Assembly (NCBI GenBank): GCA_903851415.1
Contig: CAINOE010000213.1
Location: forward strand, 41,419-105,418
Direction of reading: 5' to 3'
DNA: 64,000 nt
From: an uncultured Rhodopila sp.
GTDB taxonomy: Bacteria > Pseudomonadota > Alphaproteobacteria > Acetobacterales > Acetobacteraceae
The translations under genes were made by a program, and so were the position numbers. Below the pieces are notes generated by a model. That model saw only the letters and a program-made list of their open reading frames with translations. It was not told the origin of the DNA and made no database searches. Positions within the stretch are counted from its first letter, which is position 1. Each line of letters begins with the position of its first letter. This document shows, one piece after another, positions 24,374-30,168 of the stretch.

Positions 24374-24742
24374 TCACGGAAGCTGAAAGCTCGTGACAAC
24401 GCCAGCCGCATCGATCTCGACAAAAAGATTGGGCGTATCCGCAATCAACGGTCCGGCCACCGTCAATACCTGTTCGAATAACGGCCGCAACTGAGCATGC
24501 GGAAGCGACGGGATCAGGATAACGCCCGGATGTTCCCGGCCCTTTGCGGCCAGCCCGATGAAGTCGCCACGATTCACGGTCACGAAAACCGAGCCTGCGC
24601 GCCGGGCAAATTCGAAGATATCAAGGTCGGGTGCCTGCCGCCCCAAAACGGCGACCTCTACGGTTCGTTGGGCGGTATGTCCCGCCGCTTCTGCAACCCT
24701 GACGAGCGCTTTGCCGCAGCACTCGTCAAGCAGCAGATACAT
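24374..24742 (-). CDS. DUF5615 family PIN-like protein (putative toxin)
   Basis: MYLLLDECCGKALVRVAEAAGHTAQ...VFVTVNRGDF; overlaps the upstream DUF433 gene. Confidence 0.78.
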   Translation of the reverse strand: MYLLLDECCGKALVRVAEAAGHTAQRTVEVAVLGRQAPDLDIFEFARRAGSVFVTVNRGDFIGLAAKGREHPGVILIPSLPHAQLRPLFEQVLTVAGPLIADTPNLFVEIDAAGVVTSFQLP

Positions 24743-25328
24743 GCACAGTCCTGTCGCTACCCACCGCAGGGCGGCCGCGCCTGGGACTGGTCCGGTCGAA
24801 CACCACTGCAGCGTCGATCTGTGCGTCGGTCAGGTCCAGGTCGTCCCGAAGCTCCTCCCTCGCCGCTCCCCGCTTCATCAAATCGGCGACGTGCCGAGCG
24901 GCGATCCGCGTGCCCTTGATCACCGGCTCTCCGCCCAGGACATCCGGGCGGCTCTCGATATGATCGCGCTTGCTCTGCTCCAGCGCCTCGAAAGGTCCGA
25001 GAATATCCCGGCGTATAAGGTCGATCCGGAACGCGAGGCGATGCACGCCAGCCTCATTCCTGCCCGCACTGGCCGCCTCGGCGATCGCCTTGCGCACCAG
25101 CTTGCGCAGCGCCGGATCGAGCCGGGTGCGAACGTCCTTCATCGCCGCCAGATAGAAAACGTCAGGCCCGGTCACCAGGCGCTCGGACTCGCCACCCGGG
25201 TTGATGATCCCGGCATCGATCTCCCGGTTGATCTCCTTGACCGTCAATCCGGAGACGAAAGCCGCTTCCGGCACCGTCAGGTGCGCTTCGGTTACATCCG
25301 CCACGAGGCAGGCTCCTAAATCATCCAT
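24726..25328 (-). CDS. DUF433-containing protein with N-terminal HTH-like segment (putative antitoxin)
   Basis: ESRPDVLGGEPVIKGTRIAARHVADLMKRGAAREELRDDLDLTDAQIDAAVVF. Confidence 0.78.
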   Translation of the reverse strand: MDDLGACLVADVTEAHLTVPEAAFVSGLTVKEINREIDAGIINPGGESERLVTGPDVFYLAAMKDVRTRLDPALRKLVRKAIAEAASAGRNEAGVHRLAFRIDLIRRDILGPFEALEQSKRDHIESRPDVLGGEPVIKGTRIAARHVADLMKRGAAREELRDDLDLTDAQIDAAVVFDRTSPRRGRPAVGSDRTVHVSAA

Positions 25329-25470
25329 GCCGATGGATTGATTTGGCGTTCCACTGCCGAAGATGCAAGCCAATCCTGCGGCCAAATCGCGACGACAAAC
25401 CCCCTTTCGCCGGGACGCAATCGCGGTCCCGGGACAACCGCCCGCATCGTCGCGTCACCTCTTGGCTCCG

Positions 25471-25911
25471 TCACCCGCCGCCATCAATAACACACAACCC
25501 GGCCTTTCCCCCGCGCACCGCCGTCGCCGGCAACCGCCGATCGAACGTCGCCAATTGGCCGCCCCGGACAACCGCCAGCGCCAACAGATACGTATCCGTC
25601 ACCTGACCGGGCGTTGCGATCTGCGCCGCATCCACCTGATCCGATCCCACCAGGCTAAGCCCGTCCTCTCAGAACCCATGCCCCGGCAAACCCCGCAACC
25701 GCTCCACGATCGGCGCCACCGCCGCCGGGGAACCGGCCGAGTTGGGATATTTCGGGTGCCCGACGACGCGCAGCACGCCGTTCTCGGTGATCGGACAGGT
25801 TGCCAACGAAGCCGACCCGGTCTCGCGGAACCAGCGATGAGCCGCCTCATGCCCGACATGAGCGGGATCGATCAGCGCGATCAGCACGTTCACGTCGAGC
25901 AGATAGGTCAC
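25471..25911 (-). pseudogene. VapC-like PIN-domain toxin interrupted by an in-frame TGA
   Basis: MTYLLDVNVLIALIDPAHVGHEAAHRWF...RLRGLPGHGF*EDGLSLVGSDQVDAAQIATPGQVTDTYLLALAVVRGGQLATFDRRLPATAVRGGKAGLCVIDGGG*; TGA at 25669-25671, frame otherwise continuous. Confidence 0.82.
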
Positions 25912-26135
25912 GGCAGCTCATCGCGCAGGGCGTTGACGATGTCCGGCGTCACGATGGCGCCCTTTGCGCGCACCGGCAGCAGCGGGATGCCGTTCCGCTC
26001 ACCAGGCGCGGCCGGCTGCCGCAGCGACCGCCGGGCAAGATCGGAGACGACCTGACCGATCGTTCTATTCGTTTGGTGTGCGATGGCCTTTGCCGCCGTC
26101 AGGACGTCGTCGTCGATGACCAGGGTGGTGCGCAT
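25908..26135 (-). CDS. VapB-type antitoxin
   Basis: MRTTLVIDDDVLTAAKAIAHQTNRTIGQVVSDLARRSL; overlaps the start of the vapC-like gene. Confidence 0.78.
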   Translation of the reverse strand: MRTTLVIDDDVLTAAKAIAHQTNRTIGQVVSDLARRSLRQPAAPGERNGIPLLPVRAKGAIVTPDIVNALRDELP

Positions 26136-26216
26136 GATGGCCTCCTGCATCACGCGTCATACACCAGGCATCAATCGTCAGGAACGCCGTTCCGCGGGCA
26201 CTCCGATACGCGTGCG

Positions 26217-26415: not shown

Positions 26416-26952
26416 CTACAGTTCGATCACCCCTCCCCGAAGCCCTTTGGTCAGGGCTTCCGCGCGGCTGGTGGCGTCGAGTTTGGTGAACAGCGCTTCC
26501 ATGTGGAACTTGATCGTATGGACCGAGATCCCCAGCCGCCGCGCCATGGCTTTGTTGCTGAGGCCCTCGCCGATCAGGCCGAGGATTTCGCGTTCCCTCG
26601 GCGTCAGCAGGGGCGCGTCGTCGGCGGGGGCGAAGCTGCGCGGTTCCGGCAGGCCCGGCGGCCGCACCAGCAGCCCGGCGGCGACCGCGCGCAGGGCTGC
26701 GTCCAACTGCTCGGCCGAGGCGTCGGGCGGCAGCACGCCAGCCGGACCGGCCCCGGCGGACGCCACGGCGGTCAGGGCGACGACCGGGGCTTCGGACTCT
26801 CGCGGCAGGGTTTGGCCGCTGTCGCACAGCTCCACATCCGGCGTGTCATCGGTGACGGCGTGGCCCGCGCCCTCCAGCATGGCGATCAGCCCGCGCCGGC
26901 GCACCGGGTCCGTGGCATGAACCCGCACACGCAGAGGCGCGGGCTCGCTCAT
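26416..26952 (-). CDS. LuxR/NarL-type transcriptional regulator with short, atypical receiver-like domain
   Basis: LTPREREILGLIGEGLSNKAMARRLGISVHTIKFHMEALFTKLDATSRAEA. Confidence 0.82.
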   Translation of the reverse strand: MSEPAPLRVRVHATDPVRRRGLIAMLEGAGHAVTDDTPDVELCDSGQTLPRESEAPVVALTAVASAGAGPAGVLPPDASAEQLDAALRAVAAGLLVRPPGLPEPRSFAPADDAPLLTPREREILGLIGEGLSNKAMARRLGISVHTIKFHMEALFTKLDATSRAEALTKGLRGGVIEL

Positions 26953-27839
26953 GCCGCCGGCCGGGCCGCGACGGTGACGGCGATGGTCTGCACGGCTCCG
27001 GCGCGGAGGACCCGCAGCGCCACCGCCTGGCCGATGCGGTCGGGCCCGAGCGACGCGGTGAGGGCCCGCGGGCGGCTGACCGCGGTGCCGTCGATGTCGA
27101 GCACGATGTCGCCCGGCAAAACCCCGGCGGTGGACGCGGGTGCGCCGTCCGCCAGGCTGACCACCATCAACCCGCTGTCGCGGCCGGCGGACTGACGGAA
27201 ACCGTCCGGGATCATCACCGGCTGCAAACCGACCCCGAGCCAGCCGCGGGCGATGCGGCCGTCCGCCAGCAACGGATCGACCACCCGCTCCAGGGTTGCG
27301 GCGGGGATCACAATGGTCCGGCGCCGCGGCCCGGACGTGGACATGCCGATCAGACCGCCTGCGAGGGAGATGACAGGTCCGCCCTCGTCAGCGGCGAGGC
27401 CGGCGTCCAGCCGGATGAAGGCGTCGATCCGCCCGCCGGCCATGCTGTGCCAGGCCGCGCCCGCTTCATGCACCGTCGCCAGCCGCGCCGTCGGCCCGCC
27501 GGAGGCATCGGCGCCGATCAAAAGGGCCAGGCTGCCGACGCGGGGCGGCTCGGTTTCGGGGTGGGGCAGGGCGCCGTCGAGCGGGGATTCCAGCTTCAGC
27601 ACCGCAACGTTGGTGCCCGGATCGCGGCCCGCCAGGGTCGCGGCGACGCGCGCGCCGCCGCGGATGACGGACAGCCCGGTCGCGTCCTCGGGGAGCACCT
27701 GCTCGGATACGAGGACGACGTCCGGGCGCCAGAGGATGCCGCTTCTCGGCCGTTGCCCGCTGTGGATTCCAACCGTGAAGGCTGCCGCCTGAGCGGTCCG
27801 ATCGGCCAGCTCGGTGGAGAGTGTGTCTATGATGCCCAT
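26949..27839 (-). CDS. HtrA/S1C-like protein with PDZ domain, predicted pseudoprotease
   Basis: SGILWRPDVVLVSEQVL (H to Q), GRDPGTNVAVLKL (D to N), AADEGGPVISLAGGLIG (S to E), then PDZ-like LGVGLQPV...GAPASTAGVLPGDIVLDIDGTAV. Confidence 0.8.
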   Translation of the reverse strand: MGIIDTLSTELADRTAQAAAFTVGIHSGQRPRSGILWRPDVVLVSEQVLPEDATGLSVIRGGARVAATLAGRDPGTNVAVLKLESPLDGALPHPETEPPRVGSLALLIGADASGGPTARLATVHEAGAAWHSMAGGRIDAFIRLDAGLAADEGGPVISLAGGLIGMSTSGPRRRTIVIPAATLERVVDPLLADGRIARGWLGVGLQPVMIPDGFRQSAGRDSGLMVVSLADGAPASTAGVLPGDIVLDIDGTAVSRPRALTASLGPDRIGQAVALRVLRAGAVQTIAVTVAARPAA

Positions 27840-27950
27840 GCTGTGAGGTCTCCTTGCATGGTGTGATCCTGACTGGTTGGCGGCGGCGGCGGTATCGGGC
27901 GGATGGCCGGTTGGGGGCCTCGCCGGATGGCCGGGTGGGCTGTTCGGCAT

Positions 27951-28446
27951 CGCCATTTAACACAGAGAAGAAAAGCCGAGGGCCACAGAGGGCACAGAGC
28001 AAAGCGACCGTTAAATGGCGTAGCGGCTGACGCCGTCTACCAGGCGGCGCTCGTGGAAATTCATCAGCAGGCCGGCGGGGAGCCGGCTCAGGCGGAGGTA
28101 GGTCAGGATTTGTGCCACATGAGCCGGGGCGATGGCCGCGACCGCCTTGATTTCGAGAAGCACGGTATTCGCCACTATGATATCCGCACGAAATCCCAAC
28201 GGAATTGTCTCGCCTCGATAGACAAGGGGGATCGGCACCTCGCGCCCGAACTCCAGTCCAGCGCGTTCCATGTCGCGGCAAAGGCACGCCATATCCACGG
28301 ACTCAAGCAACCCCGGCCCAAGCGCCCGATGGACTCCGATGCCCAATCCAATAATACGTTCGGTCAACGCCTTATGCTTGTACATTATCATGATAAGGCT
28401 CTGTGTCCTCTGTGGGCCTCCCCGCTTTCTCTGTGTGAAACCTTAA
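27951..28446. mobile_element. GxxExxY module bracketed by inverted CACAGAG arrays (D1)
   Basis: Left ttaacacagagaagaaaagccgagggccacagagggcacagagc; right (reverse complement) ttcacacagagaaagcggggaggcccacagaggacacagagcc. Confidence 0.6.
28011..28391 (-). CDS. GxxExxY family protein (PD-(D/E)XK-like fold)
   Basis: LTERIIGLGIGVHRALGPGLLESVDMACLCRDMERAGLEFGREVPIPLVYRGETIPLGFRADIIVANTVLLEIKAV. Confidence 0.88.
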   Translation of the reverse strand: MIMYKHKALTERIIGLGIGVHRALGPGLLESVDMACLCRDMERAGLEFGREVPIPLVYRGETIPLGFRADIIVANTVLLEIKAVAAIAPAHVAQILTYLRLSRLPAGLLMNFHERRLVDGVSRYAI

Positions 28447-28560
28447 TAAACCGTAAACCGGCACAATCAGAACAGGTACCCAAGAACCTCCCCGCCCGAA
28501 TGGCCGGGTGCCCGCGGCACAAAACCCTCCCCATCTCGCCCCGGGAAAGGATACCTCCCA

Positions 28561-29498
28561 TGCCGCTCGATTCCGTGAACCAGGAACTCGATCCCTATTC
28601 CGCGCAGGTGGTCCACGCCTTCGATCGCGTCGGCCCCGCCGTCGTGCACGTCACCGCATTTGCCAGGGACGGCCGCTCCGCCGGGCAAGGCTCGGGCGTC
28701 ATCTTCACCCCGGACGGCTACGTGCTGACCAACAGCCACGTCGCCGCCAAGGCCTTCCGGCTCCAGGCCAGCCTGACCGACGGCCAGACCTTCGATGCCG
28801 CGTTGGTGGGCGACGACCCCGCCACCGACATCGCCGTCCTCCGCCTGTCCGGCGCCGGCCATCCGCATGCCGAACTCGGCGTCTCCGCGGCGCTGCGGGT
28901 CGGGCAGCTTGTCGTCGCCATCGGCAATCCGCTCGGCTTCACCTGCACCGTCACGGCCGGGATCGTCAGCGCCCTCGGCCGCACGTTGCGCACCCGCGCG
29001 GGCGGGCTGCTGGACAGCGTGATCCAGACCGACGCGCCGCTGAACCCCGGCAATTCCGGAGGCCCGCTGGTCTCCGGCGCCGGCCTCGTCGTCGGCATCA
29101 ACACCGCGATGATCGCTCCGGCGCAGGGCATCTGCTTCGCCATCGGCATCGACACCGCGATCTGGGTGGCGACGCGGCTGATGCGCGACGGACGGGTGCG
29201 GCGTTCCCGCCTCGGGGTGTCGGCACAGACGGTGCCGATCGGCACGCGCATCAGGCGGTTCCACGGCCTGCAGCAGGCGTCCGGCGTGATGGTTTCCGAA
29301 ATTGCGCCCGACGGCCCGGGCAAGCTGGCCGGTCTGCAGGCGGGGGACGTCCTTGTCTCGTTCGACGGCATCCCGCTGACCGGCGTGGACGACCTGCATC
29401 GCGCCTTGACCGCGGAACGGGCGGCCGTTGCCGTGCCGCTGGATCTGCTGCGCCGCGCCGAAAAACTGACGCTTCAGGTCACCCCCGCCGAAATCTGA
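28561..29498 (+). CDS. S1C (HtrA/DegP-like) serine protease with PDZ, intact triad
   Basis: SGVIFTPDGYVLTNSHVA (His), DPATDIAVLRL (Asp), NPGNSGGPLV (Ser). Confidence 0.9.
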
Positions 29499-30168
29499 GC
29501 CAACGCCGCGGCATCCCGCGTGCCGCGGCGAACGCCGCCAGCGCCGTCGCCACCAGGCCGAGCGACCCGGGCTCAGGCACCACCGCCTGGCTGAACACGT
29601 AAACCCCGTCCGCCTGGCTCATGGCGAACGCGTTCCCGCTGTCGAAGCCCCACGGATCGCCGCCCTGCAGCACGAAGCTGTCCGAGCTGAGCCCGTATGC
29701 ATCGGTTCGCCACACCCCGGACCGGATGTCCCTGTCCGCCACGAGCAGGCTGACCGTCTCCGAGCCGGTAGCGTTGGACAGCGTGCCGTCCAGATAGATC
29801 TCGACGCCCGGCCGATAATAGTACGCGGGTCCGTTGAACCCGCCGACGGAGGCGGAGTTGTCCGGCATGGCAATCGACACCGCCGCCCCAAGCGCCAGCA
29901 CCAGGGGTGCCGACGCAAATGACAGGTCGCCGGCGAAGGCCGACACGGCGATCGTCCCGACCACCCCCGAGAACGTGCTTCCGCCGGTATTGGCGATCTC
30001 GATAAAGCCGGTGTCCGGTTCGGAGAAGACGCTGTCGATCTGGTTCGGGAAGGGATTGCCGTTGGCATAGGCTGTAGTGACCGTGAGGGAGTAGCCTACC
30101 GGGGCGCAAGTGCCGAGAGCCGGCCAAAGCGCCCAGACAACCAAAACCATGACGGGTATGTTTTTCAT
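29479..30168 (-). CDS. PEP-CTERM sorting domain protein
   Basis: Signal peptide and C-terminal VVPEPGSLGLVATALAAFAAARGMPRRWLRFRRG. Confidence 0.85.
   Translation of the reverse strand: MKNIPVMVLVVWALWPALGTCAPVGYSLTVTTAYANGNPFPNQIDSVFSEPDTGFIEIANTGGSTFSGVVGTIAVSAFAGDLSFASAPLVLALGAAVSIAMPDNSASVGGFNGPAYYYRPGVEIYLDGTLSNATGSETVSLLVADRDIRSGVWRTDAYGLSSDSFVLQGGDPWGFDSGNAFAMSQADGVYVFSQAVVPEPGSLGLVATALAAFAAARGMPRRWLRFRRG

Follow-up and report, generated by a model that had tools for sequence, protein, structure and literature searches.

A conserved HtrA-fold pseudoprotease encoded beside a NarL-type regulator with a degenerate receiver domain in Rhodopila and other Alphaproteobacteria

Background

DegS and AlgW are HtrA stress-sensor proteases with one PDZ domain. 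The HtrA-like protein MamO has a degenerate catalytic triad and a residue other than glycine at position 193, and is paired with the active HtrA protease MamE (PMC4794232). The family described here was analyzed from a member encoded in a 64,000-nucleotide stretch of DNA from an uncultured Rhodopila sp. (hereafter, the window), and likewise is HtrA-like, has a degenerate triad and a non-glycine residue at 193, and is paired with an HtrA protease where one is linked. MamO belongs to the magnetosome and carries a TauE domain together with a di-histidine metal site on its surface, whereas the present family is probably cytosolic, has a PDZ domain, and pairs with a NarL-type regulator. As for DegS and AlgW, the domain order and fold are the same and the carboxylate loop of the PDZ domain is kept; however, the window protein is without catalytic residues, signal, or anchor, and its genetic partner is different. 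This partner has the LuxR-type helix-turn-helix (HTH) common to the NarL/FixJ regulators, including the atypical VpsT, but its receiver domain is shrunken and without a conserved phosphoacceptor.

In the NCBI database, the relatives from Bradyrhizobium and Paraburkholderia are named "S1C family serine protease", which implies catalysis; for the Bradyrhizobium relative, catalysis by this chemistry is impossible. Since database members are named serine proteases (e.g., WP_309185446.1 from Bradyrhizobium), the family has been hidden under a wrong function. Searches of open-licence papers on HtrA in Rhodopila, on bacterial HtrA proteins of the cytosol, and on pseudoproteases linked to a transcription regulator yielded nothing on this family. 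Pseudo-HtrAs are already known; within the papers searched, the feature that appears to be new is a response regulator, itself degenerate, as the partner.

Results

The features of the locus are given in Table 1. The ATG start of the pseudoprotease gene is preceded by the ribosome site AAGGAGAC; a longer in-frame ORF (start, 27956) exists, but 27839 is favored as the start by conservation and by the ribosome site. With Pfam, the protein matched only Trypsin_2 (2.5e-10) and PDZ (PDZ_2, 7e-12), each above the curated cut-off, and the TauE domain was absent. The best PDB matches of its AF2 model (mean pLDDT, 95) were DegS, MucD, DegQ, and AlgW (E-values of about 1e-22 to 1e-19), and the domain order of HtrA/S1C proteins (a trypsin-like fold, then PDZ) is present by Pfam, model, and PDB matches. 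The carboxylate loop RGWLGV of the PDZ domain is intact. The proposal of the initial annotation, that the fold-defining segments and the PDZ domain had been retained, was borne out. The curated NCBIfam HtrA/Deg cut-offs were missed both by this protein (best, degP_htrA_DO; 91.8 bits versus a cut-off of 416) and by the linked HtrA (278 bits). Inspection of the pseudoprotease sequence by eye revealed neither a hydrophobic N-terminus nor a signal peptide, and a cytosolic location is therefore probable.

Table 1. Features of the pseudoprotease locus (positions in the window)
Feature	Position	Strand	Remarks
NarL/FixJ-type (LuxR HTH) regulator	26416..26952	-	178 aa; shrunken receiver domain
HtrA-like pseudoprotease	26949..27839	-	296 aa; trypsin-fold residues about 22-180, PDZ about 198-292
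Conserved dyad CCGGCCATCCGCCCGATACC	27891..27910	-	About 50-70 nt upstream of pseudoprotease start
Second dyad copy CCGGCCATCCGGCGAG	27919..27934	-	Pseudoprotease side
GxxExxY-type (PDDEXK_3) gene	28011..28391	-	Between the divergent genes, within a pair of 40-nt inverted repeats (CACAGAG...CTCTGTG; region 27956-28440)
Third dyad copy CCGAATGGCCGGGTG	28496..28510	+	About 50 nt upstream of HtrA start
Cytosolic HtrA protease, intact H/D/S triad	28560..29498	+	Divergent from pseudoprotease; no signal peptide by eye

In the alignment with active HtrA proteases, the triad columns of the pseudoprotease were Q47 (His), N77 (Asp), and E152 (Ser), and those of the neighboring HtrA were H, D, and S; profile alignment to solved DegP-like structures likewise placed Q47, N77, and E152 opposite H, D, and S. 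The two alignments therefore confirm the changes of H to Q, D to N, and S to E that had been read from the sequence at the outset. No alternative intact triad was found elsewhere in the protein by the HtrA alignment, the structure profile alignment, or comparison with 53 relatives. A fourth loss, overlooked in the initial annotation, is that of Gly193, the former of the oxyanion hole, which is replaced by Ala and is retained in none of the 53 relatives. Among these relatives, the Ser site was Glu in 49, Gln in three, and Gly in one (Ser, 0/53), the His site was Glu in 26, Gln in 25, Gly in one, and Asp in one (His, 0/53), and the Asp102 site was Asn in 27, Asp in 20, and Gly in six. The Glu column at the Ser site ranked 38th of 283 in conservation; across 19 orthologs with 52-93% identity, N77 and E152 were invariant, and the His site was occupied mostly by Q, with E in two. 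Judged from these alignments, the loss of the triad with conserved replacements is far beyond chance. Because both the triad and Gly193 tests fail, the protein cannot be counted among the catalytic HtrA proteases; it belongs to an HtrA-fold pseudoprotease family.

The family was present in many genera of Acetobacteraceae, in a Bradyrhizobium-type family (f171; we infer that this is the Bradyrhizobium group from its clustering with the protein of Bradyrhizobium sp. Ash2021), and in three other alphaproteobacterial families (f174, f56, and f78); the named carriers are Rhodopila globiformis, Acidisphaera sp. S103, and Bradyrhizobium sp. Ash2021. In the trees, the alphaproteobacterial pseudoproteases formed one supported group separate from the cytosolic HtrAs. 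A relative in Paraburkholderia sprentiae, of which the gene is followed by a response-regulator gene, keeps H, D, S, and Gly193, and its position near the base of the tree suggests that the triad was lost from an ancestor that had it. A single clade of degenerate members was not rejected (p-AU = 0.447), with one member (G799) on a long branch; the triad may have been lost once or twice. The triad sites were mostly E-D-E outside the window's clade and Q-N-E inside it, which places the loss of Asp late on this tree.

Other copies were also observed. In Paraburkholderia phymatum (plasmid pBPHY01; L212), a relative with 80% identity appears to be split over two frames in this record, by sequencing error or real damage. 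The genome of the window encodes a second, orphan pseudoprotease (G000:C151:7601-8563; L093:4602-5564), of which the triad sites are Q, G, and P and which has no regulator or HtrA alongside; eight orphan paralogs formed one separate clade, and those examined had no regulator neighbors. A Rhodopila-group genome (L213; G023:C519) had a second full cassette, with pseudoprotease, regulator, and HtrA on one strand, of the Bradyrhizobium-like E-D-E type; this is either transfer or contamination.

The dN/dS values (Nei-Gojobori) were 0.08-0.30 for the pseudoprotease versus its closest orthologs and 0.08-0.18 for the linked HtrA; in the clade of five species without regulator and HtrA plus two with the regulator, the values of 0.18-0.52 were weaker but still constrained. 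With no intact triad elsewhere and close orthologs free of relaxed selection, the selected, non-catalytic role that had been proposed at first in place of decay is supported. An ordinary pseudogene or annotation artefact, to which the loss of the triad might point, is ruled out by the open frame, the replacement residues invariant in the 19 orthologs, and the low dN/dS, and we assign it a negligible probability.

A LuxR/NarL-type regulator gene adjoined the pseudoprotease gene in 44 of the 49 loci whose contig extends far enough, including the locus of Bradyrhizobium sp. Ash2021. In the window and in most of these loci, the regulator start and the pseudoprotease stop share 4 nt (ATGA); in G799, the regulator lies upstream of the pseudoprotease instead. 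All of the five exceptions without an adjacent regulator were species of the window's genus group; as these species keep a constrained pseudoprotease without the regulator or HtrA, the protein has a function there that does not need that regulator. The HTH of the window regulator is normal (Pfam GerE/LuxR; E = 7.7e-17), and Pfam gave no Response_reg match in it; in the regulators of relatives, the receiver was at best a weak Pfam match below the cut-off. The Asp site of the receivers was not conserved across the loci compared, and the Bradyrhizobium-type regulators (123-125 aa) have hardly any receiver. The AF2 model of the regulator (one row from a plasmid record was left out of its alignment) was without receiver helices 2-4 and matched the structures of ChrA, LiaR, NarL, and VpsT. 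The regulator is probably incapable of the usual phosphorylation. Two gene pairs of other kinds were observed on the same strand: a DUF5615 and DUF433 pair in a toxin-antitoxin-like arrangement (24374-25346), and small PIN-like and ribbon-helix-like genes (25669-26153), which are VapBC-like by eye, the PIN part being unconfirmed by Pfam.

A cytosolic HtrA with an intact triad adjoined the pair in three alphaproteobacterial families and in several gene orders. All five f174 genomes examined and the window's group have it in divergent orientation, and four other loci have it on the same strand; in the Bradyrhizobium-type genomes, it is encoded elsewhere in the genome. In the window's group (34 genomes; 33 of the genus and one family member), HtrA orthologs were found in 10 genomes, each beside the pseudoprotease; four further species had only the pair of pseudoprotease and regulator, and at least five had the pseudoprotease alone. 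This distribution indicates an order of dependence, namely, pseudoprotease, then regulator, then HtrA. HtrA was rejected as an obligatory partner, being missing from many loci. Since many genomes keep the pseudoprotease and regulator without the active HtrA, the pairing with the regulator is the more constant of the two, and regulation of the linked protease, one of the roles put forward initially, is weakened. As other observations around the HtrA genes, the gene after the pseudoprotease in G799 (L096:3901-4686) codes for an HTH-like sequence joined to an HtrA protease domain of which the first half is present, and is followed by a full-length HtrA; the neighbor of the HtrA gene in the window (29479-30168, minus strand) encodes an exported protein in which a weak PEP-CTERM sorting motif was seen.

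GC-rich dyads of the CGGCC-ATCC-GGCCG type are common to the divergent intergenic regions; the dyad CCGGCCATCCGCCCGATACC of the window had no other exact match in the genome. With a weight matrix evaluated by leave-one-out against shuffles, each of the 14 training loci gave the dyad (p = 0.003-0.007), mostly at about -70, a position seen across families. Some loci outside the training set gave it as well, and it was absent in the five regulator-less species of the Rhodopila group (p = 0.44-0.93). A looser 6-4-6 pattern gave related dyads (CTGGCC-ACCC-GGCCAG) at the same distance in the Bradyrhizobium-type loci. The pattern was derived from the sequences tested, after they had been viewed, and was not significant in 26 of 49 regulator-containing loci; because of this, and because some of the regulator-less genes have apparently moved, operator function can be called only likely on the sequence evidence. 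The dyad could also be a promoter element, and, where the gene moved, a single event may have removed both the dyad and the regulator. Other genomic targets were rejected, as the four next-best sites in the genome fall inside called genes. The window and the relatives closest to it carry the GxxExxY-type gene between the divergent genes, the other loci compared having intergenic regions of 146-166 nt instead; the gene looks like an insertion in this subgroup, outside the module, and its insertion beside an operator copy possibly duplicated the site. No Rfam match was found here.

Discussion

What these sequences point to, with about an even chance of being right in our estimate, is that a cytosolic, non-catalytic HtrA homologue is the sensing partner for the regulator with which it shares an operon. 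The PDZ domain and the former substrate groove would bind C-termini or unfolded peptides; the pseudoprotease, bound or free, would hold or release the regulator in place of phosphorylation of the lost receiver; and the regulator would bind the dyad, thereby controlling its own operon as well as the divergent HtrA in genomes that have one. The net effect would be that protease supply responds to protein damage in the cytosol. Peptide sensing, which had been suggested from the beginning, is compatible with the intact PDZ domain. This reading draws on the conserved replacements of the triad and Gly193, the purifying selection, the near-universal adjacency of the regulator, its degenerate receiver, the dyad, and the frequent linkage of HtrA. 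The broader claim, that this is a new cytosolic module in which a peptide-detecting PDZ pseudoprotease replaces the phosphorylation input to a NarL-type regulator, both with the original chemistry lost, and controls a cytosolic HtrA via a shared divergent operator, is held tentatively, with the balance leaning against it.

The alternative nearest to known biology is that the pseudoprotease is an activator or adaptor, which would form mixed oligomers with the cytosolic HtrA and set its activity or substrate choice, as has been reported for MamO and MamE. MamO promotes MamE-dependent processing and its own triad is not needed for this (PMC4794232), and the linkage in three families and several gene orders, together with the fact that the Rhodopila-group HtrA never occurs without the pseudoprotease, would be explained. 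It would not explain, however, why the pseudoprotease and regulator occur with no such HtrA in at least four Rhodopila-group species and at many loci, and the Bradyrhizobium-type HtrA lies elsewhere in the genome; we consider the activator role rather unlikely. The sensing and activator readings could both be true, in different lineages.

If the protein were instead a cytosolic holdase chaperone or scaffold, unrelated to a regulator that merely shares its transcript, the five species that keep it alone under purifying selection and the orphan paralog clade would be accounted for; but the adjacency, the frequent ATGA overlap, and the parallel degeneration of the receiver over deep divergence exceed the needs of shared transcription, and this explanation appears improbable. 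Another proposal places a new ligand site, e.g., for a metal, at the former active site (E-D-E basally, Q-N-E in the window's clade). Glu occupies the Ser site in 49 of 53 relatives and E-D-E is an acidic cluster, and MamO was co-opted to bind metal, albeit at another position on its surface (PMC4794232); Q-N-E would, however, make a poor metal site, and one family has Gly at the Asp site, which leaves such a site very improbable.

As for the sensing reading, the family offers natural contrasts, namely, the full module, the pair only, the pseudoprotease alone, and the Paraburkholderia relative with H, D, and S. If it is true, the family would illustrate how the chemistry of a protease and that of a response regulator can both disappear, leaving a single switch based on protein binding, and would represent in the cytosol what HtrA stress sensing is in the periplasm.
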